A stretch of 48,034 bases of DNA. Source: Ignavibacteriales bacterium. Lineage in GTDB: Bacteria > Bacteroidota > Ignavibacteria > Ignavibacteriales > Ignavibacteriaceae. Of this stretch, positions 1,565 to 33,986 are shown piece after piece; the first letter of the stretch is position 1, and every line of letters begins with the position of its first letter. A program made the position numbers and the translations under genes. The notes below the pieces were generated by a model that had not been told where the DNA came from, made no database searches, and worked only from the letters and a program-made list of their open reading frames with translations. The stretch spans positions 1 through 48,034 of the forward strand of contig JAGUYG010000036.1 in assembly GCA_020061465.1 (NCBI GenBank), read 5' to 3'.

Positions 1565-1602
1565 TAATTCAATAATTGGCATAGTGGTAAAGGGAATTGC
1601 CA

Positions 1603-5732: not shown

Positions 5733-6860
5733 ATGATAAATCAACAAAAAAATATTTTAAGGCTTCTAAAAGCTGCTGCTGCATTCTCTGCCGCTCTGCT
5801 TATATCAATTGCTGGCTGTAAAGAAACTCCGCCGGTTATGGTTGACGGCGATGCGCATATTGAAATTTTGGCGGTATGGAATATTTCTCTTGACGATTCA
5901 CTACCCGAATATATGCCCTTAAAGAATGCGCAGGTAATTCTTTCTTCAGAGTACGGTTTGCAGGTTAAGCAAACCGACAGTAACGGAATGTTAAATGTTT
6001 CGGGTCTTCCTTCATCCACCTATAATATTTCTGCCCGGATGCAGCACCCTGAAGACCCGAATATTATTATTGTGGGCAACATCCGTGATATCGAAATTAT
6101 TTCGGGAATCACTTACAGAGATACAATTTATGCAACGCCAATCTCGAGTTTCGGAATTTCAATTAATGAAATTTATTCCTGCGGGCCGGTTAACTCGATC
6201 TTCTTTTTCTTCGATCAATATCTTGAATTATATAATTCGAGCGACAGCGTGAAATATCTCGACGGTATGATTGTAATGCGCGTATCGGGTAATAACGAAG
6301 GGAAAGGACCCGGCGCAGATGAATACGACGATGGTCGAATTTGGGGAGTGACATATATTTTTAAATTCCCGGGCAGCCCGGGTGAAAAGAATCATCCTTT
6401 TTATCCCAAAACTTTTATCGTGCTTGCTTCCGATGCAGTTAATCATAAAAGTGTTGTTTCTACAAGCATAGATTTAAGCAATGCCGATTGGGAATTTTAT
6501 AATCAATTTTCAGCTACGGATATAGACAACCCCAATGTTCCGAACTTAATAAATATGCGATCCGACCGAACTGTTGATTTTTTAATTAATCTTGTTTCAG
6601 ATGTAATAGTTATTGCATCCGGTGTAGATTCGGTTTGGGAGGACGGCATTGATATCGAAACCATTATAGACGGTGTTGAATATCAATCGAATACCACGAG
6701 TGCAAAAACTTTAGATAAAAGAGTTGATAGAGGATTTATGCTAAGTCCGCCCCGATACAGCGGACAGTCCATGCAAAGACACGAACCCGGCTTAGATACA
6801 AACGATGCATCATTAGATTGGGAGATTATTCCTTATGCAACGCCGGGGTATCATAGGTAG
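5733..6860 (+). CDS. DUF4876-like surface lipoprotein (second of a tandem pair)
   Basis: This is a paralogue of the gene directly upstream, of the same length class and layout. The signal peptide ends in SIAGC, giving a lipidated Cys at about 29. A regulatory-like domain (about 45-140) precedes a lamin-tail-like region (about 145-375) containing FFFFDQYLELYNSSD and GPGADEYDDGRIWG. The segment corresponding to about 150-285 is almost the same as in its neighbour even at DNA level, while the N- and C-terminal parts differ much more. This suggests recent duplication with gene conversion of the core. It is the last gene before a repeat-rich spacer. The function is unknown; surface binding of the receptor's substrate is a reasonable inference. 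Confidence 0.75.
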   Translation: MINQQKNILRLLKAAAAFSAALLISIAGCKETPPVMVDGDAHIEILAVWNISLDDSLPEYMPLKNAQVILSSEYGLQVKQTDSNGMLNVSGLPSSTYNISARMQHPEDPNIIIVGNIRDIEIISGITYRDTIYATPISSFGISINEIYSCGPVNSIFFFFDQYLELYNSSDSVKYLDGMIVMRVSGNNEGKGPGADEYDDGRIWGVTYIFKFPGSPGEKNHPFYPKTFIVLASDAVNHKSVVSTSIDLSNADWEFYNQFSATDIDNPNVPNLINMRSDRTVDFLINLVSDVIVIASGVDSVWEDGIDIETIIDGVEYQSNTTSAKTLDKRVDRGFMLSPPRYSGQSMQRHEPGLDTNDASLDWEIIPYATPGYHR

Positions 6861-6970: not shown

Positions 6971-7054
6971 TAATTGTTTAAACCATGAATGACAGCAAAA
7001 CGAATGACTATTAATGACTTTGATCATTTTGGTTCCGGCTTGACTGGATTAGGG

Positions 7055-7152
7055 AGTCAGAAGTAAGAAGTCAGAAGTAAGAAGTCAGAAGTAAGGAGTA
7101 AGAAGTAAGAAGTAAGAAGTCAGAAATCAGAAATCAGAAATCATAAATAAGA
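7055..7152 (+). repeat. 7-bp microsatellite-like array (AGTMAGA), about 14 units
   Basis: Heptamers AGTCAGA, AGTAAGA, AGTAAGG and AATCAGA follow one another in register for about 98 bp. The same heptamer family forms a second array at 13791-13846, so it is a dispersed tandem repeat in this genome. Confidence 0.85.
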
Positions 7153-7175
7153 ATGAGGAAAGAAATAATTAATTA

Positions 7176-13735: not shown

Positions 13736-13762
13736 CAACCCGCAGGGTGGTGCTGCGGGTTG
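13736..13762. repeat. GC-rich hairpin after the T9SS propeller gene
   Basis: The arms caacccgcag and ctgcgggttg form a perfect 10-bp stem with a 7-nt loop, about 40 bp after the stop. It is strikingly GC-rich compared with its surroundings. No T-run follows, so it looks more like a REP-type palindrome than a classical terminator. Confidence 0.55.
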
Positions 13763-13790
13763 AGGGGTGTAGGAAAGCAGAGGAATTAGA

Positions 13791-13846
13791 AGTCAGAAGT
13801 AAGGAGTAAGAAGTCAGAAGTCAGAAGTAAGGAGTCAGAATTTAGA
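13791..13846 (+). repeat. Second 7-bp AGTMAGA tandem array, about 8 units
   Basis: Units AGTCAGA, AGTAAGG, AGTAAGA, AGTCAGA, AGTCAGA, AGTAAGG, AGTCAGA and ATTTAGA follow in register. It is the same family as the array at 7055-7152. Confidence 0.8.
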
Positions 13847-14038
13847 AATAGAAAGAATAAAATTTCACAATTGCATTAAGTTCTCTGAAATGATTGATAA
13901 TAATTTTGGTTAATAGAATTTCGAACTCGTGCTTGTCATCGTGTAGATAGAGGTCGAATTATTGTAAAAATTAATATTAGCTGAAATTCAAATCCTTGAA
14001 GAGGATTAACAAAAAATAAGAAAGAACAATTAAACTAA

Positions 14039-15805
14039 ATGAATAAAAACGCACGTTTATTTCAATTTATCGCAGCAATAATTTTTTTCTGCCTCGGATA
14101 TTTATATTCACAAATTCCCGGTGGATACAAAAGCGGGCTGGATTATATCAACAAGGAAGATCTTCACACTTACATTACTTTTTTAGCATCCGACAGTTTG
14201 AAAGGACGATCTGCCGGTTCACCCGAAAATTTCGAGGCTGCGAAATTTATTGCACAAAAATTCAGCAGCTTTGGACTTAAACCTTATGTCGAACCTAAGT
14301 CTTCGAGTTCAAAAACTGAAATTGCCGCTGATGACGATGATAAAGATGTTCCGATGTACGTAACTCCAAAGCATGAAGAAACTCCGTTCGAAAAGTACTT
14401 TCAAAAATTTTATATACTCGATTCAAAAATCGATCAGGAAAATACAGCGTTAAGCATAAGCACTAAAAATGAATCAATCTCCAAAAAATTGTCATACAAC
14501 TTCAAAAAAGATTTTTTAGTCGATTACAGGGAATTAAAAAATCTCGCAATGGAAGCTAAAGTGGTTTTTCTTGGCTACGGTATTGAGAAAGGTGAAGAGA
14601 GCTACAGCGATTATGTAGATGCAAACGGAAAAGAGATTGACATTAAAAACAAAATTGTCCTCATCGTAGAAAGTTTCCCGGGTGAAAAGGATTCGTTGAG
14701 TCCTTTCAACAAAGTGAAAAATCATATTTATAAAAATACTAGAAGAAAAGCCGAGACTGCTTTCGAAAAAGGTGCTGCTGCTGTATTAGTAACTAAATCG
14801 CCTTTTAATGATTTTCCCCCCTTCCCGGTGCACTATGAAGGTTATGCAAACGCATTTTCAAAATCTAATTTCACATTGCCCGGATTAAAAAGAAAAGAAT
14901 CCGTTCCGATTTTTTATGTTGACGATGCAGTGGTTACTGAGCTTTTCGATCAAAGCGGAAAATCATTTCTTAAAGTACTTGCTGAAATAGATTCGAGTTA
15001 TAAAGGGAAACCGTTCGAGCTGAATAATAAAACAGTTGCATTCGACATCAAGTTTGACAATAAGCTTGTGCCGGTGCAAAATGTTATCGGGTACATTGAA
15101 GGAAGCGATCCGGTTTTGAAAGACGAATACATTGTAATAGGTGCGCACTATGATCATGTTGGTTTTGCTTATTACGGCGCGATGGATAAGAAAAACATCG
15201 GTCAAATTCATAACGGTGCCGACGATAATGCATCAGGCACTTCCGGAATAATTGAGCTTGCCGAAGCTTTCTCAAAAACAAAACCAAAGAGAAGTATAAT
15301 CTTTATTGCTTTTACTGCCGAAGAAAACGGTCTGCTTGGCTCAAGATACTATGCTTATCAAAATCCGTTTAGAAGCACCGAAAAAACTGCAGGCATGATT
15401 AACCTTGACATGATAGGCAGAAATGAAGACAACGTACTTTGGGTAGGCGGAATATTTTATAGCGATGAAATGAAATACCTTGTTGAAGAAGCCAATAAAG
15501 AAATAGGATTCGAGCTGCTTTATAATGTCGGCTTATTAACATTTGGAAGCGATCAAGGACCTTTTATAAGAAAGGAAGTTCCATCTATCTTTTTCTTTAC
15601 AGGTTTGCATGACGATTACCACACACCGTTGGACGACGTTGAAAAAATTAATTTCGCCAAATCGGAAAAGGTTGTCAAGCTCGCTTTTATATCGGGGTGG
15701 ATGCTCGCAAACAAAAATGAAACCCCAAGGTACCGCGAGCTCACGATGGATGAAAAAATAGCGCTCGTAAAACATTCATTAGAGCGGCAGAAAAAATTTA
15801 AATAA
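14039..15805 (+). CDS. Secreted M28-family zinc peptidase with PA-type insert
   Basis: This is a predicted exported aminopeptidase of family M28. A signal peptide or anchor (about 1-26) is followed by a region with a PA-like insertion (about 150-330) containing a run of charged residues near 90-100. The catalytic domain (about 345-575) shows the co-catalytic zinc ligand pattern: His370 (GAHYDHVG), the Asp395-Asp396 pair (GADDNASG), Glu428-Glu429 (TAEENG), Asp457 (NLDMIGR) and His528 (DDYHTP). All expected motifs are present, so it should be active. There is no T9SS domain. The gene stands alone with repeat-rich spacers on both sides, and its neighbour is another peptidase, consistent with protein scavenging. 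Confidence 0.9.
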   Translation: MNKNARLFQFIAAIIFFCLGYLYSQIPGGYKSGLDYINKEDLHTYITFLASDSLKGRSAGSPENFEAAKFIAQKFSSFGLKPYVEPKSSSSKTEIAADDDDKDVPMYVTPKHEETPFEKYFQKFYILDSKIDQENTALSISTKNESISKKLSYNFKKDFLVDYRELKNLAMEAKVVFLGYGIEKGEESYSDYVDANGKEIDIKNKIVLIVESFPGEKDSLSPFNKVKNHIYKNTRRKAETAFEKGAAAVLVTKSPFNDFPPFPVHYEGYANAFSKSNFTLPGLKRKESVPIFYVDDAVVTELFDQSGKSFLKVLAEIDSSYKGKPFELNNKTVAFDIKFDNKLVPVQNVIGYIEGSDPVLKDEYIVIGAHYDHVGFAYYGAMDKKNIGQIHNGADDNASGTSGIIELAEAFSKTKPKRSIIFIAFTAEENGLLGSRYYAYQNPFRSTEKTAGMINLDMIGRNEDNVLWVGGIFYSDEMKYLVEEANKEIGFELLYNVGLLTFGSDQGPFIRKEVPSIFFFTGLHDDYHTPLDDVEKINFAKSEKVVKLAFISGWMLANKNETPRYRELTMDEKIALVKHSLERQKKFK

Positions 15806-15814
15806 CGTCCCGTA

Positions 15815-15835
15815 GCACAGAGGACTCCTCTGTGC
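15815..15835. repeat. Palindromic repeat, copy 1 (GCACAGAGG/CCTCTGTGC)
   Basis: A perfect 9-bp stem with ACT loop lies 10 bp after the M28 stop. The same palindrome recurs at 15929-15947 in the same spacer. Confidence 0.75.
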
Positions 15836-15928
15836 GACAAAAAAGAAAGCTAACTATGGAAGAGAAAATGCTCATAAAAAATATATAAGAGACAAAAAAA
15901 AGTTAAATAACATTACATAATTACATAA

Positions 15929-15947
15929 CACAGAGGACTCCTCTGTG
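15929..15947. repeat. Palindromic repeat, copy 2 (CACAGAGG/CCTCTGTG)
   Basis: This is a second copy of the palindrome at 15815-15835, with the same ACT centre and an 8-bp stem, 63 bp before the M16 peptidase start. Confidence 0.75.
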
Positions 15948-16010
15948 CTTAAAGAATTGACAAAATAAAACTAATTATTCTACTCAACCAGACAAAATGA
16001 GGCAATCTAA

Positions 16011-18888: not shown

Positions 18889-20859
18889 ATGAGAATTTTT
18901 ACAGCCAAAGTAAAGCTCATTGCAGCAAGTGTTATTTTGTTTTCATCAATCGCACTCTCTCAGATACCCGATTTCCATTGGAGTACCAAAGGAAGCGGAA
19001 CACTTAATGATCAAGGGATGGCAATTGCTGTCGACCAAATGGGATATGTTTATGTAACGGGTCAATTCTTTTCTACTGCACTCTCCTTTGCACCCGGTCT
19101 TACTATCACAATGCCGGGAGGCAGCGGCAATTGCGATTTCTTCCTGGCTAAATTCGATCCGATGGGAAATGCAATTTGGGGTATGAATGGCGGCGGTACT
19201 TTAACCGACCGCGGCTACGGCGTCACGTTCGATCATCAAGGACAATTATTAGTTACCGGTCATTACTTCGGTACTGCAACTTTTGGATCGCATACGATGA
19301 CAAGCTCGGGCAACCTCGATGCTTTTACATTTAAAGCAGATACCGCCGGAAATATAATCTGGATGAAAGAAGGTAAAAGTGTATCGCAGGTTTCTACCCG
19401 CGGAATCGCATCCGATTATTACGGTAATGTGGTTATAACAGGTTATTATGGAAGTGCAACAGTAGACTCAGTTCGGTTTGATGACATAAAATTAGTTACA
19501 AACGGTGCAAGAGATGTATTTACAGTTAAGTATAACAATAACGGCGATGTTTTGTGGGGACGAACAGGCGGCGGCGTATTAAGCGGTGAAGAAGGCAAAG
19601 CGGTTGCAGTTGATATCGCCGGGAATGTTTATGTAACCGGTATGTATAACGACACAGCATCTTTCGGATCAGTCACTCTCAACGGCAACGGCGGCTCCGA
19701 AATATTCATAGTGAAATATGATGCCGACGGTAATTTAGCCTGGGCAAAAACTGCAGGCGGTCTTAAAACAGATGTCGGTTATGGAATTGCTTTAGATGGA
19801 TTAGGAAACTTATATGTATGCGGAAATGTTGACAGCGCTGCTACGTTTGAAAGCACTAATGTTTTAACGGCAGGCGGATACGATGCCTTTGTTGCTAAGT
19901 ACGATACTTCCGGAAATCTTATTTGGGTTAGTCTTGCAGGCGGTGCCGCTAATGATGTTTACTTGGATATTGCGGTTGACCGCTTTGGATATTGTGTAAC
20001 AACAGGATACTTCAACGGTCCGGCAACTTTCGGTTCATTCGTGCTAGATGGTTATGCCGGCGATGATGCAAGTTTTGTTAAATATGATCAAAGCGGCGGT
20101 GTATTATGGGCAAAGGAAGGAATCGGGACAGATAACGATCGTGGAATTGCAGTAACAGCCGATGGCGGCGGTAATCTTATTGCATCCGGTTATTTCAAAA
20201 GCTGGGTAAAATTCGGCAGCGATTCTCTTGTATCAGCCGGCGTTGAAGATGTGTTCATTATAAAAATTGGCGATAACATCATCCCCGTTGAACTTGCATC
20301 ATTTACCGGAAATTTTGAAGACGGTATGGTTACGCTTAAATGGTTAACAGTTACAGAACTGAATAATTACGGTTTTGAAATAGAAAAAAGTTTTGACAAA
20401 ACAAATTTTGATAAGATAGATTTTGTTAAAGGAATCGGAACTACGACCGAAAAACAATTTTATACTTACATCGATAATGATGTAAAAACCGGTAAGACTT
20501 ATTACAGGCTTCGTCAAATTGATTTCGACGGCACGTTTTCATATTCCAATATTATCGAAGTGGATATAAATATTCCATCGAAGTTTGAACTTGAACAGAA
20601 CTATCCGAATCCGTTTAATCCTTCAACATCAATCAAATACAGCCTTGCTGCAAAATCCAAGGTTGAGTTGAAGGTTTATAACATTCTAGGTAAAGAAGTT
20701 GCACTGCTTGTTAACGATACTCAAGATGCAGGCAGCTATGAAGTTCAATTTTCCGTAGGATCCTTTGGAAATGCAGAAAAATTATCCAGCGGAATTTACA
20801 TATACGAATTGAATGCAGGAGCTTTCAGCGCGAAGAAGAAGATGATGTTAGTCAAGTAA
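18889..20859 (+). CDS. T9SS-exported SBBP-type beta-propeller protein
   Basis: This is a secreted repeat protein. The signal peptide (about 1-25) precedes SBBP-like blades (about 30-460), recognised by repeated GN-x-Y/V-VTG-x-F/Y and FxAKYD-type motifs. An Ig-like linker follows (about 465-560; VELASFTG), then a T9SS type A domain (about 570-656; NYPNPFNPST, KVYNILGKEVALLV). A strong AGGAGG precedes the ATG. The last 250 bp and the following spacer are nearly the same as at the end of the gene at 23418, including the tail KKKMMLVK, but this copy has a small insertion (SVGSFG) in the sorting domain. The function of the propeller is unknown. Confidence 0.87.
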   Translation: MRIFTAKVKLIAASVILFSSIALSQIPDFHWSTKGSGTLNDQGMAIAVDQMGYVYVTGQFFSTALSFAPGLTITMPGGSGNCDFFLAKFDPMGNAIWGMNGGGTLTDRGYGVTFDHQGQLLVTGHYFGTATFGSHTMTSSGNLDAFTFKADTAGNIIWMKEGKSVSQVSTRGIASDYYGNVVITGYYGSATVDSVRFDDIKLVTNGARDVFTVKYNNNGDVLWGRTGGGVLSGEEGKAVAVDIAGNVYVTGMYNDTASFGSVTLNGNGGSEIFIVKYDADGNLAWAKTAGGLKTDVGYGIALDGLGNLYVCGNVDSAATFESTNVLTAGGYDAFVAKYDTSGNLIWVSLAGGAANDVYLDIAVDRFGYCVTTGYFNGPATFGSFVLDGYAGDDASFVKYDQSGGVLWAKEGIGTDNDRGIAVTADGGGNLIASGYFKSWVKFGSDSLVSAGVEDVFIIKIGDNIIPVELASFTGNFEDGMVTLKWLTVTELNNYGFEIEKSFDKTNFDKIDFVKGIGTTTEKQFYTYIDNDVKTGKTYYRLRQIDFDGTFSYSNIIEVDINIPSKFELEQNYPNPFNPSTSIKYSLAAKSKVELKVYNILGKEVALLVNDTQDAGSYEVQFSVGSFGNAEKLSSGIYIYELNAGAFSAKKKMMLVK

Positions 20860-20900
20860 ATATTCTTAAGCCTTTGAACGACAAAGGAGGTTTGAATATC

Positions 20901-20940
20901 AAAAACCTCCAACGTCACTGTTTTAGATGTTGAAGGTTGC
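20901..20940 (+). terminator. Terminator-like hairpin after the SBBP gene
   Basis: The stem cctccaacgtc/gatgttgaagg is imperfect in this copy and is followed by TTTT. The GGAGGTTT just upstream could pair with the same AACCTCC arm, giving two exclusive folds. Intact copies lie at about 25880-25922 and 26131-26172. Confidence 0.5.
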
Positions 20941-20955
20941 TTTTAATCGTTTAGT

Positions 20956-20984
20956 TGTAGGTCAACTTGCCAAGTTGACCTACA
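20956..20984. repeat. Palindromic repeat TGTAGGTCAACTT/AAGTTGACCTACA, copy 1
   Basis: The arms are 13 bp, perfect, with a 3-nt centre. Further copies lie at 21196-21224, 25946-25966 and 26197-26217. Confidence 0.8.
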
Positions 20985-21004
20985 GTTTCAGCTTTGATTA
21001 ATTG

Positions 21005-21050
21005 AGAATGAGTGCGCAGAACGAATCGATTTTAGTCCTGCGCTTATTCT
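21005..21050 (+). promoter_or_regulatory. Leader hairpin copy A upstream of a truncated receptor start
   Basis: AGAAT/ATTCT forms the base and GCGCAG-AC/GT-CTGCGC the upper stem, ending 10 nt before an ATG. The same structure precedes the intact receptor start (26239-26284) and a second truncated start (25991-26036). Paired base changes between copies keep the stem. Confidence 0.45.
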
Positions 21051-21060
21051 TCAAATTATT

Positions 21061-21104
21061 ATGATTAAAAAAATACTACTTGCATATCGTTTACTAATTA
21101 GTAA
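21061..21104 (+). pseudogene. Truncated 5' end of a TonB receptor gene, copy A
   Basis: The codons read MIKKILLAYRLLIS, matching the start of the intact receptor at 26298 (MKKILLAYFLLIG). After about 14 codons the match is cut off by the palindrome at 21104. An open frame of 71 codons continues through repeat DNA to 21276 but has no protein-like character, so I treat it as a remnant. Confidence 0.6.
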
Positions 21105-21136
21105 CCTTCGAGGTCTTAATCATCGACCTCGAAGGT
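21104..21136. repeat. Palindrome ACCTTCGAGGTC/GACCTCGAAGGT, copy 1
   Basis: This is a 12-bp perfect stem with a 9-nt loop, placed exactly where the truncated receptor start loses homology. A second copy lies at 26089-26121. Confidence 0.8.
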
Positions 21137-21195
21137 TTGAATATCAAAAACCTCAAACGTCACTGCCTTGGACGTTGGAGGTTGCTTTTAATCGT

Positions 21196-21224
21196 TGTAG
21201 GTCAACTTGCCAAGTTGACCTACA
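21196..21224. repeat. Palindromic repeat TGTAGGTCAACTT/AAGTTGACCTACA, copy 2
   Basis: This is the same 29-bp palindrome as at 20956-20984. The homology to the other spacer ends at about this point. Confidence 0.8.
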
Positions 21225-21419
21225 AAACGCGTTACACAAAGAAATTCGAAGAGTAGAGATGACATCTTTTATTTAATAATCAAACTTGTAGCATAATATC
21301 GTCGACACTCGAATATTGATGATTGATGGTACAGCAAAAAAGATATCATCTCTTAACTGTAAGTAAGGTAACTTATTAGCTTTTTTTATTGTTGAACTAT
21401 TACTCTTGTAGGGGAATGA

Positions 21420-23372
21420 ATGAAAAATAAAGTGCGGCTCTCGATCCAGATTATTATTCTCGGGCTGATTGCTTACGTAGCAATCAGACCATTATTCGAC
21501 AGCAGCTATTTAGCAGACTTTGAATCTTATTGTCCTTTTGGGGGATTAGCATCTCTCGGAAGCAAACTAAATCAAGGAACGATGTCCTGCAACATGAGCG
21601 AGGTTCAGTTGCTGCTTGGCATCGGTTTGATTGTAGGAGTTATTCTGGTGGGAAAATTATTTTGCGGTTATATATGTCCGATAGGTTCGGTAACAGAATG
21701 GCTGGGAAAGTTAGGTGAAAAATTAAGAGTTCGAATCGATATGCCATCGCTAATCGATAGACCGCTTCGTCTGCTAAAGTACGGAATTCTATTTGCAGCA
21801 CTTTACTATACCATGACTTCAAGTGAATTATTCTGCAAAGAATTCGATCCGTATTTCGCAAGTGTCTATCTGTTCGATAACACAGACATTACTTTATATT
21901 TTGCAATTCCGGCATTTGCCTTAACGGTGCTCGGTGCTATTTTCTTTAGACTATTCTGGTGCAAGTACTTATGTCCGCTTGGTGCATTAAGCAACATATT
22001 CTTAAATGTAGCGGGCGCCGGTGCAGTAATATTAATATTCGTAATTGCAAATCTTTTAGGCGCTCAGTTAAGCTATGTTTGGCTCGTATTAGGAATTATA
22101 ATTGTCGGTGCCGTTACGGAATTAGGTTTTATGCGAAGCTTTTTGCTTCCTGCACCTAAGATTACACGTGATACTTCATTTTGTTCTGACTGCGGTATTT
22201 GCGATTCAAAATGTCCGCAGGGAATTAAAATTTCTGAATTTGAAAAAGTAAACCACATAGATTGTAACTTGTGCTCGGATTGTGTATTCGAATGCCCCAC
22301 ATCAAATTCATTAACAATCGGCAGCAAAGAGAAATATAAGTATTTGGCACCCGCTGCAGTTGTTCTGCTTATTGCACTTAGTCTTGGTGCGGCGTCAGAT
22401 TTTGAACTTGCAACCATTTCGGAAAAATGGGGTGATTATGAAAATGTTAATACAATGCAAGTATACGAACAGTCGGGAATAAAAAATGTGAAATGCTACG
22501 GCAGTGCGATGTCGCTTAAAAATAATCTTGTAAATGTGGATGGAATTTATGGAATAGATGCATTCGCAAAATCCCACACTGTAAAAATATTTTACGATCC
22601 TGCTGAGATATCAGAGACGAAGGTTAAAGCATCAATCTTTACTCCTATAAAGATGGAAACGCGTAAAATGAAAGAAGGAGAGCTTGCTGAACTTAGTGTT
22701 TGGGAAGCACACGTTTATGGTTTGTTCGACTTGATAGACTTTAACAATATGTTTTATACATTAAGAGAAGATGAAGGGGTTTACGGATTTGAAACCCACT
22801 TTGGAGAGCCCGTAATTGCGAACATCTTTTATGATCCGGTAAAAACAAATCCTATGACGATTAAAAACCAAATAGAAAAGAAAAAGATTACAGTTAAAAA
22901 ACAAACCGGTACTGAAACTATCGAATTAAACTTTAAAGTGGATAAGAACAGCAAAGAGAGTGGTACAATTAACATTGCAGATTACAGACAGAGAATATTC
23001 AGAACTTACGATAGGAAATTCAATAAGTATAAAGAATACGATTTCAACCGGCTTTCTGTCCTTGTCTTTCCGATGCCCGAAGCCGGTGTTCCTGCTCTAA
23101 GAAGATATTTTGGTTCATTAACAAGTCATCTTTCTGCCGATGATGGAATTGTGAGATTTTCAACAAGATACAATGAAATGCCTATGGCTTATGTATTCTT
23201 CGATCCTAATCAAACCGATGCGGAAAAAATAAAAACTGCCTTAGTTAAGGAGAAATTAACTGTCTTTATAAGCGAAACGGAAACTAAGGATATTGATAAT
23301 CCCTTCAAGATTAATCCCAAGGGAGAAATTTATCCCGCCGGAGAAATCCCGATAGACAAGGAAAATTTATGA
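21420..23372 (+). CDS. NapH/NosR-like membrane ferredoxin with degenerate HMA-like domains
   Basis: This is an inner-membrane iron-sulfur protein. About five membrane segments lie in the first 235 residues. The hallmark CxxxCP pairs are Cys82/Cys86 (CGYICP) and Cys181/Cys185 (CKYLCP), and an early conserved SYCPFGG holds Cys38. Two 4Fe-4S motifs follow: Cys255, 258, 261, 265 and Cys282, 285, 288, 292. After another hydrophobic segment (about 305-325) come three HMA-fold-like repeats (about 340-405, 425-490, 540-615), each ending in an F-x-DP strand. The first keeps only Cys359 and Met364 (CYGSAM) where metal-binding HMA domains have CxxC. Electron transfer across the membrane to an envelope partner is likely from the family. 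The link to the receptor locus is by position only. Confidence 0.85.
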   Translation: MKNKVRLSIQIIILGLIAYVAIRPLFDSSYLADFESYCPFGGLASLGSKLNQGTMSCNMSEVQLLLGIGLIVGVILVGKLFCGYICPIGSVTEWLGKLGEKLRVRIDMPSLIDRPLRLLKYGILFAALYYTMTSSELFCKEFDPYFASVYLFDNTDITLYFAIPAFALTVLGAIFFRLFWCKYLCPLGALSNIFLNVAGAGAVILIFVIANLLGAQLSYVWLVLGIIIVGAVTELGFMRSFLLPAPKITRDTSFCSDCGICDSKCPQGIKISEFEKVNHIDCNLCSDCVFECPTSNSLTIGSKEKYKYLAPAAVVLLIALSLGAASDFELATISEKWGDYENVNTMQVYEQSGIKNVKCYGSAMSLKNNLVNVDGIYGIDAFAKSHTVKIFYDPAEISETKVKASIFTPIKMETRKMKEGELAELSVWEAHVYGLFDLIDFNNMFYTLREDEGVYGFETHFGEPVIANIFYDPVKTNPMTIKNQIEKKKITVKKQTGTETIELNFKVDKNSKESGTINIADYRQRIFRTYDRKFNKYKEYDFNRLSVLVFPMPEAGVPALRRYFGSLTSHLSADDGIVRFSTRYNEMPMAYVFFDPNQTDAEKIKTALVKEKLTVFISETETKDIDNPFKINPKGEIYPAGEIPIDKENL

Positions 23373-23417
23373 TTCATCTTAATAAACTATTCACCATAAC
23401 AAAATAGTGAGGTCACA

Positions 23418-25838
23418 ATGAAAAAGTTATTTACCGTTTTAATCGTTTGTGCTTTTACGGTAATTACGTTCGGTCAAGTATTTGACTGGCAGTGGCAGAA
23501 TCCCAAGCCTCATGGAAATACCATGAGAGCAGTGAAGATTCTAGGTCCCAATACAATCGTTGCCCTTGGTGCAGCAGGTACAGTTCAAAAAACAACCAAC
23601 AATGGGATTACGTGGGAAGTTTCCTATGTAGATCTGCAAGGACGCGAATTCAGAGGAATTGATTTCGTCAGTGCCTCTATAGGTTACGCATGCGGATCAA
23701 TCGGACTGCTTGCAAAAACCACAGACGGCGGCAGTACATTTACCATATTAGATGGCTCAACTACCGAGCTGTTATATGATATTGATTTTATCGATGCAGA
23801 CACAGGTTTTGTGAGCGGGGCTAACGGAACTTTGTTAAAAACTACCGATGGAGGTACAACATGGAACCCTGTTACAACTCCGGTTACAAATGCAATCTAT
23901 GCGGTCTGTGCACAAGCGCCGGATAATCTTTTTATCGGTACAGTTTCAACCGGTGCTACACAGCGTTTAAGCCGCTCTACTGATTACGGTGCAACCTGGG
24001 TTGAAATTACACCCGCAGGTTTGGCACAAACTATCTGGGATATAAATTTCATCAATACCACTATAGGCTGGGTTGCAACTCAAAACGGCGGCAGAGTTTA
24101 TTATACCACCGATGCCGGCGCTACATGGGGTAATACTGTGGTAAACGGGCTTATCGTACCCAACACAGTTAAATTTAAAGATGCTTTAACAGGTTTTGTG
24201 GTTAATAATAACAACGGTGATGTATATAAAACTACCGATGGCGGACTCACCTGGGCTGCATCAGGTACCGCAGGTGAACCTCTTTATGCTGTTGATGTAA
24301 GCAATAGCACGGTCTACGCTGTGGGCAGAAGCGGTTCAACCTGGAAGAGCACCGATGAAGGAAATAATTATTTTGCTGCCTTCGATGCTGTTACAGTTGG
24401 TCAAGTAAGGTATATCCGTTTTGTTAATTCAACCACTGGTTATGCTTCTACGGGTTCAACAACCACAACAGATTCTCTGGGTTACTTACTCAAAACTACT
24501 AACGCCGGTATGACCTGGACAGATGTTGGATATAACTTTAAACATTTAGTCTATTCATTTGCATTAGCTTCAAGCAATGTTTGGTACATCGGCAGAGGCA
24601 GAAATGCTATATTTAAAACTACCGACGGCGGAGCTACTTTTGTTGAGCAGGCTCAGCCAATCACTTCGGCAACTGCACACTTTTATGATATTGGTTTTGT
24701 CGATGAGAATAATGGTTACGCATCTACTTCGACCGGAGGTATAATAAAAACAACTGATGGAGGCACTACCTGGGAAAATGCTAATTCTCCGTTTGGAACA
24801 ACCGCCGTATATGCCATAAATGTTTTTAGTGCAAATAAGGTTCTGGCTGTTGGCGGAAGCGCTAAAGCATTTATGACTACCGACGGAGGTGCTACCTGGG
24901 AAGCAGTTACTACTAATATCCCGGGTAATTTCTTTACTACAAGATTCTTAAATGATAATTATGGTATTATCGCAGGATTTAATTCGCCTAACCCCGTCGC
25001 GGCTAAAACTACTGACGGAGGTACAACTTGGACTCCATTAAACTTCCCGGTTGAATTCGACGGTAATAGTTTGTGGGCTATCGGATATAGAGATGAAAAT
25101 TATATCTGGTTAGGCGGAATAAATGGATCCATTTATTTCACTACCGATGGAGGAACATCCTGGACTAGTTCGAAACCAGTTTCAGGAAATGCTATGTATA
25201 GCATCAGTATCGTGAATAATGACATGTGGATTTCAGGCGGTAACGGTACTATTCTGAAAGGTTACTCCGATCCAAACATTCCTGTAGAGCTTGTTTCTTT
25301 CAATGCAAGTGTGAACGGTAAAGACATTAATCTTGTTTGGAAAACTGCAACCGAATTAAACAACAGCGGATTTGAAGTTGAAAGAAGATATGCAAACGCA
25401 GGCTGGGAAAAGATTGGTTTTGTTGCAGGCAAGGGAACCACTACGGAAATCTCTCATTACTCTTATACCGATACTCCTGCTAAAACAGGTGTAATTCAAT
25501 ACAGATTAAAACAGGTTGATTACGACGGAACATTCGAATATTCCCAAATCGTTGAGGTCGATTTAACAGCACCAGTTAAATTTGCTTTGTCACAAAATTA
25601 TCCGAATCCGTTTAATCCTGCAACCTCGATTAAATACAGCTTAGCGGCAAAATCTAAGGTTGAGTTGAAGGTTTATAACATCCTCGGTAAGGAAGTTGCA
25701 CTTCTTGTAAATGAGACACAAGATGCAGGAAATTATGAAGTCCAATTCAACGCAGAAAAATTATCAAGTGGAATTTACATATACGAATTGAATGCAGGAG
25801 CGTTTAGCGCGAAGAAGAAGATGATGTTAGTCAAATAA
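23418..25838 (+). CDS. T9SS-exported YCF48-type beta-propeller protein
   Basis: This is a secreted propeller protein. A signal peptide (about 1-19) precedes about a dozen YCF48-like blades (about 22-620) with the repeated KTTDGGxTW motif. An Ig-like linker (about 630-715; VELVSFNASV) and a T9SS type A domain (about 720-806; NYPNPFNPAT, KVYNILGKEVALLV) follow. The final 250 bp and downstream spacer are duplicated at the end of the gene at 18889, although the propellers themselves are of different types. It lies 45 bp behind the membrane ferredoxin with its own ribosome site (GTGAGGT), so the two may be co-transcribed. The blade count is approximate. Confidence 0.88.
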   Translation: MKKLFTVLIVCAFTVITFGQVFDWQWQNPKPHGNTMRAVKILGPNTIVALGAAGTVQKTTNNGITWEVSYVDLQGREFRGIDFVSASIGYACGSIGLLAKTTDGGSTFTILDGSTTELLYDIDFIDADTGFVSGANGTLLKTTDGGTTWNPVTTPVTNAIYAVCAQAPDNLFIGTVSTGATQRLSRSTDYGATWVEITPAGLAQTIWDINFINTTIGWVATQNGGRVYYTTDAGATWGNTVVNGLIVPNTVKFKDALTGFVVNNNNGDVYKTTDGGLTWAASGTAGEPLYAVDVSNSTVYAVGRSGSTWKSTDEGNNYFAAFDAVTVGQVRYIRFVNSTTGYASTGSTTTTDSLGYLLKTTNAGMTWTDVGYNFKHLVYSFALASSNVWYIGRGRNAIFKTTDGGATFVEQAQPITSATAHFYDIGFVDENNGYASTSTGGIIKTTDGGTTWENANSPFGTTAVYAINVFSANKVLAVGGSAKAFMTTDGGATWEAVTTNIPGNFFTTRFLNDNYGIIAGFNSPNPVAAKTTDGGTTWTPLNFPVEFDGNSLWAIGYRDENYIWLGGINGSIYFTTDGGTSWTSSKPVSGNAMYSISIVNNDMWISGGNGTILKGYSDPNIPVELVSFNASVNGKDINLVWKTATELNNSGFEVERRYANAGWEKIGFVAGKGTTTEISHYSYTDTPAKTGVIQYRLKQVDYDGTFEYSQIVEVDLTAPVKFALSQNYPNPFNPATSIKYSLAAKSKVELKVYNILGKEVALLVNETQDAGNYEVQFNAEKLSSGIYIYELNAGAFSAKKKMMLVK

Positions 25839-25861
25839 ATATTCTTAAGCCTTCGAACGAC

Positions 25862-25928
25862 AAAGGAGGTTTAAATACTAAAAACCTCCAACGTCACTGC
25901 CTTGGACGTTGGAGGTTGCTTTTAATCG
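25862..25928 (+). terminator. Terminator-like hairpin after the YCF48 gene
   Basis: The stem AACCTCCAACGTC/GACGTTGGAGGTT is 13 bp, perfect, and followed by TTTT. The GGAGGTTT at 25866-25873 can pair instead with AAACCTCC, so two exclusive folds are possible. Confidence 0.6.
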
Positions 25929-25945
25929 CAATAAGTTTATGTGAT

Positions 25946-25966
25946 GGTCAACTTAACAAGTTGACC
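25946..25966. repeat. Palindrome GGTCAACTT/AAGTTGACC, copy 3
   Basis: The arms are 9 bp, perfect, with an AAC centre. This is a diverged copy of the palindrome at 20956-20984. Confidence 0.75.
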
Positions 25967-25990
25967 TGCAGTTTCAGCTTTGATTAATTG

Positions 25991-26036
25991 AGAATGGGTG
26001 CGCAGGGCTAATTGATTTTCGCCCAGCGCTTATTCT
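25991..26036 (+). promoter_or_regulatory. Leader hairpin copy B
   Basis: The base is AGAAT/ATTCT and the upper stem is GCGCAGGGC with GCCCAGCGC (one mismatch), 12 nt before a truncated receptor ATG. The GGC/GCC pair here replaces AC/GT pairing in the other copies, a compensatory change. Confidence 0.5.
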
Positions 26037-26048
26037 TCAAATGATAAT

Positions 26049-26132
26049 ATGAAAAAAATACTTCTTGCATATTGTTTACTAATTAGTAACCTTCGAGGTC
26101 TTAATCAGCGGCCTCGAAGGTTTGGATACTAA
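26049..26132 (+). pseudogene. Truncated 5' end of a TonB receptor gene, copy B
   Basis: The frame reads MKKILLAYCLLIS, then continues through the palindrome at 26089 to a stop at 26130, 27 codons in all. The first 12-13 codons match the intact receptor gene that starts 249 bp downstream. It could still be translated as a short leader peptide, but its origin is clearly a partial duplication. Confidence 0.65.
26089..26121. repeat. Palindrome ACCTTCGAGGTC/GGCCTCGAAGGT, copy 2
   Basis: This is a 12-bp stem with one G-T type wobble position, interrupting the truncated receptor start exactly as in copy 1 at 21104-21136. Confidence 0.75.
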
Positions 26133-26178
26133 AAACCTCCAACGTCACTGCCTTGGACGTTGGAGGTTGCTTTTAATC
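26131..26178 (+). terminator. Second copy of the terminator-like hairpin
   Basis: The stem AACCTCCAACGTC/GACGTTGGAGGTT with a TTTT tail is identical in its stem to the copy at about 25880. It now lies inside the leader of the receptor gene, where it could attenuate read-through. Confidence 0.55.
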
Positions 26179-26196
26179 GCAATAAATTTATAAGAT

Positions 26197-26217
26197 GGTC
26201 AACTTGGCAAGTTGACC
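26197..26217. repeat. Palindrome GGTCAACTT/AAGTTGACC, copy 4
   Basis: The arms are 9 bp, perfect, with a GGC centre, 101 bp before the start of the intact receptor. Confidence 0.75.
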
Positions 26218-26238
26218 TACAGTTACTTTGATTAATAG

Positions 26239-26284
26239 AGAATGGGTGAGCAGGACAAATTGATTTTAGTCCTGCGCTTATTCT
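26239..26284 (+). promoter_or_regulatory. Leader hairpin copy C, directly before the intact TonB receptor
   Basis: AGAAT/ATTCT forms the base and GAGCAGGAC/GTCCTGCGC the upper stem, ending 13 nt before ATG 26298. Its closeness to the start could affect translation. No known riboswitch consensus was recognised. Confidence 0.45.
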
Positions 26285-26297
26285 TCAAATGATAATA

Positions 26298-28967
26298 ATG
26301 AAAAAAATACTTCTTGCATATTTTTTATTAATTGGCTGTGTTTGCTTTGCTCAAACGAACATTGCAACTCTAAGCGGAACAATTACCGATGAGCAAGGCG
26401 AGCCTTTGCCGTTCGCTAATATTCTTTTAAAGGAAACAAATAACGGCGCCGCAGCCGATAGTAAGGGTAAATACAAAATTATTTCACGCGCTGGTGTATT
26501 TACCGTTGAAGTTTCTTTTATTGGTTATGAAAAAGTTTCAGAAAAAATTGAACTGTTTGAAAACAAAACGGTTGAAAAGAATTTCAAACTAAAATATACC
26601 TCATTCGAAATCGGCACTATAGTAGTGGTTGCAAAATCGGATTTTCTGCCAATCTCTCCCGAGACAAAAACCACCGTTACCTCGGGCGAAATTGAACACA
26701 TTCAGGCTTCAAGTCTTAATGATGTAATGAAGCTTACGCCAGGTGTTGAAACAACTAACCCCACCTTAAACACTGTTGAAAAAGCACAGATAAGAAGCGG
26801 TGATGCATTAGGCACACAAATTATTCTCGATGGAATTCCGATTACTAATAATGCAAACATGCAGGTAGGTATAGGATATTCTTCTGCAAACAGCGGCATC
26901 GACCTTCGCTCTATTCCGGCTGAAAATATTAAAGAAGTTGAAATTATTCGCGGTATTCCCTCAGTTCAATACGGCGATTTAACCGACGGGCTTTTACTCG
27001 TACGAACCAAAGCATCTGCCGATGCACCAAAAGCAAAAGTAAAATATAATCCGCAGCTTTATGAAATGAACTTCAGCGGCGGAATGTTCTTAGGTGACTG
27101 GATATTGAATGCTAATTTTAATTTAGCATCTTCCGAGCGTGATATCCGTGTGCAGGGCGACGGTTATACAAGAATTGCCGCTCAGCTTTCTCTCGAGCAG
27201 GATAAAGAAGAATTCAATTGGAAAAACATCGTTTATTTTACAAGAGCTTTCGATGAGTATAAGGAAAAACCTGGTTATGCTTTAAGAGAAGCATGGTATA
27301 ACCGCGATGTTAATATTAAATATACGGGAAACTATTCGAGATATTTTGATTCTTTTAATAAGCTGTCGGCAAAATTATCGGTCTCTTATACAAGGCAAAA
27401 TTCGTACGAACAGAGATTAGTTTCGCGCGACAATATTGTTATATCCAATAGGCTGACCGAAGGAACGCAGGAAGGAAGAATAGTTTTCGGTTCTTACTTA
27501 GGCAATAGAAATATTCGAGGTGATGTTTGGAATATTTTTGCAGATGCAAATTACAGCTATAAATTTTTTACATTCGATTATCTGAACGGTTTAATAGCAG
27601 GCGTTACTTACAGAAATGATTTTAACAAAGGCGAAGGAATTATTTTCGATCCGCTTTTTCCTCCCTCCGTTTCGGTTACTACACCGCGCTTAAGGACTTA
27701 CAGCGATATCCCCGGCTATACAATTCTTAGCCTCTATGCCGAAGATAAAATTACCGGAACATTATGGAAGCCGTTTACATTGCAAGCCGGTGTACGCTAT
27801 GAGGCATATCGCCCGAGCGGTGTGAACTTAAAAGGATTAATCGGGCAGGCAGATTTAATCGAATCGGACAACGGAAGTTTTCTTAATCCAAGAGTTGCTT
27901 TCTCGATGAATTTAGCTGAAGACACTCAAATTCGATTAGGTTACGGTGTTACTTCAAAATCGCCGCCGTTGGGAATGATCTTCGCGCAAGAAAAATATTT
28001 TGATATTATCGATACGGTCTCGGTTGTAAATCCGCAGTATCCGGACAGCAATTTTTCTCTTGTTTCAACATTTATTCGTCAGCAGGCGAATCCCGATATA
28101 AAAGGGTATAAACAAACAAAGTATGAGTTGAGTATTGATCAGCAGTTTGAGTTTTTTGGTATCTCGGTAACGGGATATATCAATGAAACGAAGGATATGT
28201 TTCAAGGATTTGGTGAGCCGATGACTTATTATAAGCGGGCTTACCCCAATTGGCCCGATCTCGACGGTTCACATGTTACGCGTTACTATCTCGATTCATA
28301 TTCAAAGTATGCTAACAACGGCTGGCAAAATGTAAAAGGAATTGAAGCAGCATTTACAACGAAAAGAATTCCTGTTGTAAATACAGTACTAAAAATTGAT
28401 GCGGCATATACATATTCCGACAATGGAACAAATAACGGTTTCTATTTTTCTTCTGCAAGATTCGTCCCAACACTCAACGAAGAAGTTATGCCGATGTACA
28501 CGTCCCACGAAAATTATTACAAAGATTTACTAATCAATTACCGCTTTGAAATTCAAGCAAAAACTTTAGGTTTATGGCTGACGCTTCATTTGCAGCAAAA
28601 GCTGATCGAAATAAACGGACGAAGAAAATACGACGATACACTCGCTATTGGCTATTATACAATCGGCGGTGAATTGGTTATGCTTTCTCCGGAACAGAGA
28701 ACCGATGCGCAATATGCCCCGTTGAAAAGGACAGTTCAATGGTACGATTTGCTTGAAGAAGATAAACCTAACAAATGGCTGTTTAACCTGAAGGTAAGCA
28801 AATCATTGTGGAAGGGTGCGGCAATTTCATTTTATGTAAATAACTTTTTTAACAATCAACCGCTTTATAGAAGACAGAGAAGCTCACCTGCTTCACCGAG
28901 TTATGAAAGAAGAAATCCCAATATATTTTATGGAATAGATTTCAGCAGTGCAATTAATTTGAGGTGA
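26298..28967 (+). CDS. TonB-dependent receptor without STN domain
   Basis: This is a second outer-membrane TonB receptor. The signal peptide (about 1-19, ending CFAQ) is followed by a carboxypeptidase-regulatory domain (about 23-105, TLSGTITDEQGEPLPFANIL), a plug (about 120-250, SGEIEHIQASSLNDVM, IILDGIPITNNANM) and a barrel. It resembles the receptor at 1603 in plug and barrel but lacks the STN domain, so it should not signal through FecR. I start it at ATG 26298, not the in-frame ATG 26289, because the truncated duplicate starts at 21061 and 26049 align to this codon. The C-terminal region YGIDFSSAINLR ends the barrel. It is followed directly by a DUF4876-like lipoprotein gene. Confidence 0.9.
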   Translation: MKKILLAYFLLIGCVCFAQTNIATLSGTITDEQGEPLPFANILLKETNNGAAADSKGKYKIISRAGVFTVEVSFIGYEKVSEKIELFENKTVEKNFKLKYTSFEIGTIVVVAKSDFLPISPETKTTVTSGEIEHIQASSLNDVMKLTPGVETTNPTLNTVEKAQIRSGDALGTQIILDGIPITNNANMQVGIGYSSANSGIDLRSIPAENIKEVEIIRGIPSVQYGDLTDGLLLVRTKASADAPKAKVKYNPQLYEMNFSGGMFLGDWILNANFNLASSERDIRVQGDGYTRIAAQLSLEQDKEEFNWKNIVYFTRAFDEYKEKPGYALREAWYNRDVNIKYTGNYSRYFDSFNKLSAKLSVSYTRQNSYEQRLVSRDNIVISNRLTEGTQEGRIVFGSYLGNRNIRGDVWNIFADANYSYKFFTFDYLNGLIAGVTYRNDFNKGEGIIFDPLFPPSVSVTTPRLRTYSDIPGYTILSLYAEDKITGTLWKPFTLQAGVRYEAYRPSGVNLKGLIGQADLIESDNGSFLNPRVAFSMNLAEDTQIRLGYGVTSKSPPLGMIFAQEKYFDIIDTVSVVNPQYPDSNFSLVSTFIRQQANPDIKGYKQTKYELSIDQQFEFFGISVTGYINETKDMFQGFGEPMTYYKRAYPNWPDLDGSHVTRYYLDSYSKYANNGWQNVKGIEAAFTTKRIPVVNTVLKIDAAYTYSDNGTNNGFYFSSARFVPTLNEEVMPMYTSHENYYKDLLINYRFEIQAKTLGLWLTLHLQQKLIEINGRRKYDDTLAIGYYTIGGELVMLSPEQRTDAQYAPLKRTVQWYDLLEEDKPNKWLFNLKVSKSLWKGAAISFYVNNFFNNQPLYRRQRSSPASPSYERRNPNIFYGIDFSSAINLR

Positions 28968-31688: not shown

Positions 31689-31709
31689 TTGAAGAAAAGG
31701 AGGAACGAA

Positions 31710-33986
31710 ATGCTGCATACAAATATTATTGGAATGATGGGAAAGAAAATTTGGTTTTTATTTGTTGTTATACTTCTATCGCAGGCTCTTAGCGCACAAG
31801 ATTTACAGATACTCAGCCAGCCGGATATTAGAGAAATTATTCGCGATGTAAAATTTGTTGATACTCAAACCGGCTGGATTTCAGGAAATAAAGGCGTAAT
31901 TTATAAAACAACAGACGGCGGTAAGAGCTGGGTGGAACAAAACTCCGGTACGGCTAAAGACCTTGTAAAAATTTCTTTTGTTGATGCGAACCATGGCTGG
32001 TCAGCTACCATTGACGGCAGCGTATTTAAAACATCCGACGGCGGCGAAACCTGGCAGAAGTTAAGTTATTCGGATGCTGTACCGGGGATGGTTTTCAGCA
32101 TCTGCGATTTGTTAAAATTCTTTGATGAGAATACCGGTTTTATAATTGCCGGAAAACTAAGAAACATTTATTTGTTAAAATCGACTGACGGCGGTGAAAC
32201 CTGGAGTGTTAAAGATTCATTAGTCTCTGCAACTTTGCTGCGGCGATGGTACGATATTGATTTTTATGGCAGCAGGGGAGTGCTTGTCGGCGATAAAAAA
32301 GAAATTCAAAAGTATTCTACAGATTTTGGCGAAACATGGACCTTCTCAACCGCAATTGTTGACGGCTTCTTCAGAGATTTGAAGTACGTGAAGTTTTTAA
32401 CAGAAACTGAGATTGTTACCATCGGCGAGGGAAACGAGTTCTCTGGTGTTCCGGTTCCGGTTTATAAATCTTATGACGGAGGAGTAACCTGGGTAAAGAA
32501 AAATCAATCATTAAGTACCATTTATGACCGTGTGCGCAGTGCGTATTTCAAAAATGAACTTGAAGGAATCGGAGTCGGCAGCGATGGTTTCAGTAAAGCC
32601 TTCGTAGTTAAAACCAGCGACGGCGGCGAAACATGGAGCCATACTGTGCTTGATTATGCATTCGGTCTACAAGTAATAAATGGCATCGGAGATTTTTTGT
32701 TCGTAATGGGCACGTCGACTCATTTTATTTATTCAACCGATTTTGGTGATAGCTGGCAGAATCTGCCGCTTAAACCCCCGACATCTGTTGTAAGCATTAC
32801 TTTTAAAGAAGAAAAAGGTTATGCCATTACCCGGAACGGCGATCTTCTTTACAGCAGCGACGGAACAGGCAATTCATGGGAATATCTATCGCACACCGGA
32901 AAAAATAATTCAGGTGCAATTGTATTTCTTTCGGCAGATACAGGATTGGTTCTTAAAGAGAACAAACATATTGTAAAAACAACAGACGGCGGACAAACAT
33001 GGCAAACTGTTTTAACGCCTGTTAATCCATCTTCACGTAACCTGGTAGGCGGGATGGACTTCGCCGATTTACAAACCGGTTATGCATGGTTCAGCTTGAA
33101 TGATTACGGAGAATATCATGTTTATAAAACAACCGATGCCGGAGATACGTGGGAATTATCAAAAGTATTCGGCGGTCCCGGTTATATTTCCGGGGATATA
33201 ATTGCGTTCGATGCAGACAATGTTGTAATCCTAGGTCCCGATACATGGACACAGCGCACTACAGACGGCGGTATAAGTTGGGAGCCTGCGGTCCTGAATA
33301 ATTTCGATCCCTACTTTGCCTCAAAAGATTTTGAAGGTGCTGCTAAGGTTGATGAAAACAGAGCAATTGTCATCGGTGAATTATTTATTTGTACTACAAC
33401 CGATAAAGGTGCAACGTGGAATTATTTAAATCACGGATTGAATGATATTGATTCTAATTTTTACAAGATTGCTTTTTTTGCTGATACGCTTGGATACATC
33501 GGGCTTTACGGCGGGACAATAATCAAAACTACCGATTTCGGTGAAAACTGGTCGGTTGACGAAACATTCAAAGATCAATACCTTCTTTTTTCTGCTGCAA
33601 TAAATGAATACGGCAAACCTTTCTTCGGAACTTCTAACGGTTATATAATCGGAGAGGAAACGATAACGAGCATTAAAGAAAGTGTACCAATAATCAGCAG
33701 CTTTAGTCTTGAGCAGAATTATCCGAATCCTTTTAATCCAAGTACAAAAATTAAATTCACAATTCCAACAATCGTAGAGACGGGGCATGCCCCGTCTCTA
33801 CAGCCGGTATCATTAAAAGTATTTGATTTGCTGGGAAGAGAAGTTGCAACACTTGTTGATGAACCAAAAGCACCCGGAACTTATAAAGTTGAATTTAATG
33901 CAGCCGGATTACCGAGCGGGGTGTTATTCTACAAATTGCAAGCGGGAAACTATGTGTCTGTTAAAAAAATGGCGGTTATAAAATAA
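31710..33986 (+). CDS. T9SS-exported YCF48-type propeller with a palindrome inserted in its sorting domain
   Basis: This is a secreted propeller closing the second receptor locus. The signal peptide is about 1-30 and YCF48-like blades with KTTDGGxTW or KTSDGGETW motifs span about 35-640. The T9SS type A domain (about 665-758; NYPNPFNPST, LKVFDLLGREVATLV) contains an extra stretch, VETGHAPSLQP, encoded by the perfect palindrome at 33774-33801. The reading frame is kept. I choose ATG 31710 over TTG 31689 because AAGGAGG (31697-31703) fits it well. In both receptor loci this type of gene follows the DUF6850-like barrel. Confidence 0.87.
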   Translation: MLHTNIIGMMGKKIWFLFVVILLSQALSAQDLQILSQPDIREIIRDVKFVDTQTGWISGNKGVIYKTTDGGKSWVEQNSGTAKDLVKISFVDANHGWSATIDGSVFKTSDGGETWQKLSYSDAVPGMVFSICDLLKFFDENTGFIIAGKLRNIYLLKSTDGGETWSVKDSLVSATLLRRWYDIDFYGSRGVLVGDKKEIQKYSTDFGETWTFSTAIVDGFFRDLKYVKFLTETEIVTIGEGNEFSGVPVPVYKSYDGGVTWVKKNQSLSTIYDRVRSAYFKNELEGIGVGSDGFSKAFVVKTSDGGETWSHTVLDYAFGLQVINGIGDFLFVMGTSTHFIYSTDFGDSWQNLPLKPPTSVVSITFKEEKGYAITRNGDLLYSSDGTGNSWEYLSHTGKNNSGAIVFLSADTGLVLKENKHIVKTTDGGQTWQTVLTPVNPSSRNLVGGMDFADLQTGYAWFSLNDYGEYHVYKTTDAGDTWELSKVFGGPGYISGDIIAFDADNVVILGPDTWTQRTTDGGISWEPAVLNNFDPYFASKDFEGAAKVDENRAIVIGELFICTTTDKGATWNYLNHGLNDIDSNFYKIAFFADTLGYIGLYGGTIIKTTDFGENWSVDETFKDQYLLFSAAINEYGKPFFGTSNGYIIGEETITSIKESVPIISSFSLEQNYPNPFNPSTKIKFTIPTIVETGHAPSLQPVSLKVFDLLGREVATLVDEPKAPGTYKVEFNAAGLPSGVLFYKLQAGNYVSVKKMAVIK
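33774..33801. repeat. 28-bp perfect palindrome inside a coding region
   Basis: The arms GTAGAGACGGGGCA and TGCCCCGTCTCTAC pair over the full 14 bp. It is GC-rich against an AT-rich background and adds residues to the T9SS domain without breaking the frame. It looks like a dispersed REP-type element. Confidence 0.85.

Follow-up and report, generated by a model that had tools for sequence, protein, structure and literature searches.

Comparison of a 48,034-nucleotide stretch of DNA from an Ignavibacteriales bacterium (contig JAGUYG010000036.1 of assembly GCA_020061465.1; hereafter the window) with itself and with related genomes suggests that the end of one gene has been copied over the end of another. 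In this reading, a type IX secretion tail and the spacer behind it passed from a YCF48-like gene into an SBBP gene by one-way, gene-conversion-like copying, and we give it a probability of roughly 0.8. The proposed recipient is the SBBP beta-propeller gene (18889..20859; Pfam SBBP and Por_Secre_tail), and the proposed donor is the YCF48-like gene (23418..25838; PSII_BNR and Por_Secre_tail), both of which encode a type IX secretion C-terminal domain that scores above the Pfam cut-off of 27 bits (35.5 and 45.4 bits, respectively). Between them, outside the repeat, lies a gene for a 4Fe-4S (ferredoxin-type) membrane protein (21420..23372; Fer4_5), and the donor is followed by an intact TonB-dependent receptor gene (26289..28967; Plug and CarbopepD_reg_2); all four are on the forward strand.

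Extent of the repeat and probable direction of copying

A blastn comparison of the window with itself aligned positions 20370-21224 (copy A) with 25367-26221 (copy B), both on the forward strand, at 78.3% identity over 874 columns (E 0.0, a similarity far above chance), and this is the sole long direct repeat in the region 20600-26297 covered by the preliminary description. Both copies begin inside the coding ends of the SBBP and YCF48-like genes and continue into the spacers, where, counted from the stop codons, 365 and 383 bp can be aligned at 85% identity (384 columns). The direct repeat, its near-identical layout in both places, and the shared gene ends with about 370 bp of spacer had all been described correctly. 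The repeat unit, however, is 0.86 kb, the reported 5 kb being the distance between the copies (about 4980-4997 bp from start to start), and the match sets in about 230 bp before the onset given at 20600. Deletion through recombination between the copies, which had also been envisaged, is possible in principle, the longest exact run common to both being 39 nt, but none was observed.

To follow the SBBP and YCF48 gene ends along their length, they were compared in 25-codon windows, with the corresponding pairs of eight relatives as reference, drawn from a set of 79 genomes comprising this one (G000) and 78 relatives. As far as alignment column 130, identity in the window pair is 51-65%, like that in the relatives' pairs (39-68%). 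From column 120 onwards it reaches 75-94%, against 41-73% in the relatives, and here no SBBP ortholog matches the window SBBP sequence at more than 68% identity. For phylogenetic trees, the 20-row alignment was divided at the QNYPNPFNP motif (column 127) into an upstream linker and a downstream tail. In the linker trees, SBBP and YCF48 sequences form separate groups (support 97/90 for protein and 99/96 for DNA), and a sister relationship of the window pair is rejected (P value of the approximately unbiased test, p-AU, 0.0042 for protein and 0.00013 for DNA). In the tail trees, the window SBBP is sister to the window YCF48, on the YCF48 side (95/90 for protein and 99/98 for DNA); with DNA, its placement with the SBBP orthologs is rejected both with all nine SBBP rows (p-AU 0.0144) and with seven (0.0188), and with protein the same constraint gives a p-AU of 0.0495 with nine rows. 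The window YCF48 tail remains with its own orthologs, and neither the donor nor the recipient gene has changed its place. The linker and tail of the SBBP gene thus have conflicting trees, as one-way copying predicts, and its tail looks replaced by that of YCF48. The copied tract runs from about 20602 to 21224, and its coding-side end lies inside a conserved coding motif where there is no palindrome.

Anatomy of the two spacers

Both spacers contain the first codons of the receptor gene, as MIKKILLAY at 21061 in spacer A and MKKILLAY at 26049 in spacer B, and in both these codons are interrupted at one common palindrome, AACCTTCGAGG...CCTCGAAGGTT (21103-21137 and 26088-26122). The preliminary description had recognized the truncated starts and the palindrome that cuts them, and its explanation of the odd open frame at 21061 holds as well: this frame is the dead receptor start MIKKILLAYRLLIS (21061..21102, forward strand). 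Receptor codons behind the SBBP gene fit only the junction between YCF48 and the receptor, and they are therefore an independent sign of the same copying direction.

In the donor spacer, some 250 bp are duplicated in tandem: unit B1 (25867-26084), with the dead receptor start at its end, matches unit B2 (26118-26333) at 90% identity by blastn, and B2 extends into the true receptor gene and includes its start. By blastn and unit comparison, the recipient spacer likewise holds a unit A1 (20888..21099) and a unit A2 (21133..21224) that ends after a palindrome which we call P2; all four units are on the forward strand. Each B unit carries palindrome P1 (AACCTCCAACGTC...GACGTTGGAGGTT; 25883-25917 and 26134-26168), palindrome P2 (GGTCAACTTNNCAAGTTGACC; 25946-25966 and 26197-26217), another hairpin noted by eye, whose position resembles that of hairpins in the short spacers of relatives, and the first codons of the receptor. 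In spacer A, P1 is present in diverged form near 20904 and at 21149-21183, and P2 is found at 20960-20980 and at 21200-21220, the latter at the distal end of copy A. Over the block from P1 to P2, the two units of a spacer agree at 92.0% (A) and 92.4% (B), and comparisons across the spacers give 84.7-90.3%; the higher agreement within a spacer suggests that the units of each were later homogenized. Both spacers fold much better than shuffled sequences (z -13.9 and -9.4). A search for strict intrinsic terminators in 20800-26350 found 0, against a mean of 3.9 in shuffles, and Rfam gave no match at gathering score anywhere in the whole window.

These comparisons make the following order of events the most likely, and the direction of copying is strongly supported. 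REP-like palindromes (after repetitive extragenic palindromic, REP, elements) would first have colonized the spacer between YCF48 and the receptor in the window lineage. About 250 bp, from the palindromes through the receptor's first dozen codons, would then have been tandemly duplicated, so that a dead receptor start remained in the spacer. Pairing of the similar tail-coding sequences of YCF48 and SBBP would have allowed the YCF48 tail and about 365 bp of spacer to be copied over the SBBP end, in a tract terminating at P2, so that SBBP would have gained a YCF48-type secretion signal; lastly, the units in each spacer would have been homogenized. The new SBBP tail should still be functional, since its Por_Secre_tail score is retained and tails can be swapped between cargoes; such exchangeability between type IX cargoes is described for P. 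gingivalis in the available text of PMC11285876. Which enzymes acted, and whether palindromes served as stopping points or second anchors, is conjecture.

Other secretion-tail genes of the genome

Por_Secre_tail matches number 143 in this genome, and 142 gene ends were used (one had no stop codon in the fetched stretch). Over the last 99 coding bases, the 10,011 pairs of tail genes have a mean identity of 43% (standard deviation 8.7). Nevertheless, 20 pairs, which overlap in genes and are not independent, share a single alignment covering 60 nt or more of the coding tail and 25 nt or more beyond the stop codon, so the case in the window is not isolated. The clearest pairs, with positions relative to the stop codon, are C22:11219/C22:13066 (-239 to +195, 90%), C23/C116 (-143 to +204, 91%) and C50/C83 (-233 to +113/115), together with three whose homology ends at P2, namely C72:17729/C95 (-270 to +141/111), C22:58494/C122:545 (-177/-198 to +33), and the SBBP/YCF48 pair of the window. 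In 12 of the 20 pairs, both members have a palindrome whose 3' end is no more than 12 nt from the point where homology stops; counting every pair in which one member or both do so, the number is 15.

A different rule, requiring downstream homology of at least 45 nt that starts within 15 nt of both stop codons, gave 39 further pairs from 25 ends; in most of these the coding tails are no more alike than in random pairs, and only the 3' element is common. The neighbouring genes C22:46360 and C22:48026 agree at 90% in their coding tails between -295 and the stop codon and have no 3' flank in common, which may be a tail replacement without the palindrome.

Several observations weigh against copying as we propose it. 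None of the 78 relatives is of the same genus, so the event itself could not be caught. With the protein tails, the test does not reject a grouping of the window SBBP with six SBBP orthologs (seven SBBP rows; p-AU 0.14). In the tail tree, two relatives of one genus (L101 and L102, from G006 and G031) likewise have their SBBP tails on the YCF48 side, a weakly supported placement, and in this respect the history of the tails is noisy. Random positions in the same gene ends are near a palindrome 31% of the time per end, and hence the 15 of 20 pairs speak only weakly for palindromes as end points of copying. The tails of L101 and L102 may themselves be further replacements.

Palindromes, tail genes and putative transposases

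Palindrome P2 occurs in 12 spacers of the genome, the two in the window and ten elsewhere, and, allowing up to one mismatch, in three of the 79 genomes (G000, G037 and G068). At eight of the ten sites outside the window, a tail-gene reading frame ends 10-119 nt away. Another, C1:31988, adjoins a ten-codon tail remnant (LLSRKMQLLK, then a stop), and C30:46853 has neither a tail gene nor a remnant alongside. The remnant and its P2 are isolated; a full tail gene with the same tail end and P2 (C1:35928) lies 3.9 kb away. By eye, GTA(G) is found beside at least one end of all ten sites outside the window, and the AACCTC/P1 family has no GTAG tag.

Exact matches to AAACCTCNGAGGTT number 66 on the forward and 54 on the reverse strand of the genome, with 0 for a reversed control. 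Among the matches listed, which are 100 of these 120 strand-wise matches and reach up to contig C99, there are at least 45 islands, and 21 of the 45 follow a tail-gene stop codon at a distance of no more than 300 nt. The corresponding p values are 4e-30 for an expectation of 1% by area, 7e-18 for 4%, which rests on an estimated gene number of about 3,600, and 5e-7 for a harsh 15%; they presume independent islands, and copying would violate this independence. Seen from the genes, 28 of 139 tail-gene ends have an AACCTC-type palindrome within 300 nt. In six relatives, again among the matches listed, 4 of 31 islands follow a tail gene at 300 nt or less (1 of 13 in G003, 2 of 10 in G017, and 1 of 8 in G019, G020, G023 and G041 together) and 3 are inside one; two other AAACCTCNGAGGTT-rich relatives, G062 and G028, lie outside this count. 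The association of palindromes with tail genes is thus weak in the relatives.

Paired AACCTC palindromes also occur in frame inside coding sequence, directly before the secretion tail, in three genes from two genera (G017 C14:31585-31633 and C132:3502-3550, and G003 C27, locus 674-724), at the same position and with a near-identical peptide, FEVERA-NLRGL...NLGGF-TIGF. Elsewhere in the window, a perfect 28-nt palindrome (33774-33801) lies within the coding end of a third YCF48-like tail gene (31689-33986), and a ACACAGAGGACTCCTCTGTG-like palindrome is present in two copies (15738-15948) between M28 and M16 peptidase genes.

Among the alternatives, the one that fares best is still improbable: a REP-associated transposase (RAYT) would have moved the tail and spacer as a DNA segment by way of the palindromes, and homologous recombination in the tail would have played no part. 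Any role of a RAYT is conjectural and is based on position. AACCTC/P1 palindromes lie on both sides of two of the ten Y1_Tnp genes in the genome (C1:283-852 and C7:71882-72451) and of one in G017 (C114), all three being Y1_Tnp by Pfam, and the copied tracts of three among the clearest pairs stop at P2. The two G000 translations show NHFH and YILLNP/YILENP, like motif forms tabulated in the accessible part of PMC6006769. On the other hand, no P2 was found near any of the ten Y1_Tnp loci of G000 and no AACCTC/P1 palindrome at the other eight, and the coding-side end of the tract, inside a conserved motif lacking a palindrome, is what homologous pairing predicts.

Gene order and spacers in relatives

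At E up to 1e-60, 26 of the 79 genomes, this one included, have the receptor, and at E up to 1e-40, 23 have the ferredoxin gene; the 13 named loci bearing the receptor are mostly metagenome-assembled genomes of Ignavibacteria, Ignavibacteriales or Ignavibacteriaceae. Six of 17 relative loci (L094-L099), from five genera, have the genes for M16 peptidase, SBBP, ferredoxin, YCF48, receptor and DUF4876 in this order. L101 and L102 have the same order minus the ferredoxin gene at that place, and the remaining nine have the receptor, preceded in seven by a YCF48-like gene. The spacers differ: the one before the receptor is 57-136 bp in all 15 measured loci, versus 450 bp in the window, and the one between SBBP and ferredoxin is 51-127 bp in all six loci having both, versus 560 bp. 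Neither window spacer matched any of the 17 relative loci (blastn, E up to 1e-3). Comparison with related genomes, proposed in the preliminary description, returned the common gene order but no counterpart of the window spacers. Judged from these sequences, the gene cluster is old, and the palindromes and the duplication are peculiar to the window lineage among the genomes compared.

This conservation bears on the earlier proposal that a 5-kb module of the ferredoxin and YCF48 genes was recently inserted or amplified, the repeats being its ends. Two genes flanked by direct repeats do invite that view, but both are in place in all six relatives that have the whole stretch, two more lack only the ferredoxin gene there, the linkers of the two tail genes have separate old histories, and the copies are already 15-22% diverged (about 15% in the spacers). 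Module insertion was rejected on these grounds and is very unlikely. The conserved order indicates instead that what moved was the 3' end of one gene and its spacer, copied in place.

Equally little is to be said for mere protein homology of the secretion domain, with spacers that came to resemble each other through independent insertions of mobile palindromes. Both genes do have Por_Secre_tail, and the palindromes recur elsewhere in the genome; but the copies also have non-palindromic spacer sequence and receptor codons in common, and this candidate was rejected on the 85% spacer identity and the conflicting DNA trees of tail and linker. An assembly artefact is the least credible explanation: the genome is a draft of 122 contigs, but the two copies differ at 15-22% of positions and the gene order agrees with that of relatives.

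Further upstream, the window holds a second TonB receptor (1597-4593) followed by two adjacent DUF4876 genes (4596-5690 and 5733-6860) with 75% DNA identity over about 820 bp, so that there are two receptor-DUF4876 clusters. The spacers at 7036-7172 and 13756-13861 contain short degenerate tandem repeats of the type AGAAGTCAGAAGTAAG.

Relation to known systems and implications

Many-copy palindromes and flanked Y1_Tnp genes fit REP elements with their RAYT; we call the palindromes REP-like only, and their mobility is putative. According to the available portions of PMC3733652, PMC6006769 and PMC12306157, REP/REPIN systems also have many short intergenic palindromes, often paired and mostly downstream of genes, some palindromes inside genes, and a Y1 transposase gene flanked by palindromes. 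In the sections of PMC3733652 at hand, REPs are located mainly downstream of coding regions with some within genes, GTAG repeats are reported from other phyla, and CGTC repeats from Bacteroidetes and Chlorobi. Unlike in those systems, 21 of the 45 islands among the matches listed are here behind a single class, the genes with type IX secretion tails, and P2 is beside none of the Y1_Tnp genes found.

Both gene conversion and REPs are known phenomena. REP sequences were reportedly proposed to evolve by gene conversion (Higgins et al. 1988). As in gene conversion of repeated genes, copying here would be one-way between similar stretches, with palindromes carried along; the difference is that secretion-tail coding sequences would provide the pairing and that the direction can be read from a piece of a third gene. 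For the surface proteins of P. gingivalis secreted by the type IX system, domain rearrangement and allelic exchange are described in the part of PMC5266723 available, whose authors invoke gene conversion. There, too, cargo genes vary through exchange of segments; as far as that part goes, what varies from strain to strain is adhesin and other domains as well as whole alleles, whereas here a tail and 3' spacer would have been copied within one genome. In the literature searched (listed titles and the beginnings of their abstracts, with few subscription journals), neither a combination of REPs or gene conversion with secretion tails nor a concentration of palindromes behind tail genes was found.

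A wider reading, which we put forward tentatively and regard as less probable than not, is that secretion tail, stop codon and downstream palindrome together act as a copying cassette: REP-like palindromes that have settled behind type IX secretion genes would owe their spread through the genome chiefly to hitch-hiking on recombination of the similar tail-coding sequences and would help to set the end of the tract, and secretion signals would be swapped between unrelated cargo genes. The receptor fragment serves as a natural tracer of the direction of copying. If the cassette reading is true, it would show in concrete terms how secretion signals move from one protein to an unrelated one, and would account for the concentration of a REP-like repeat behind a single functional class of genes.

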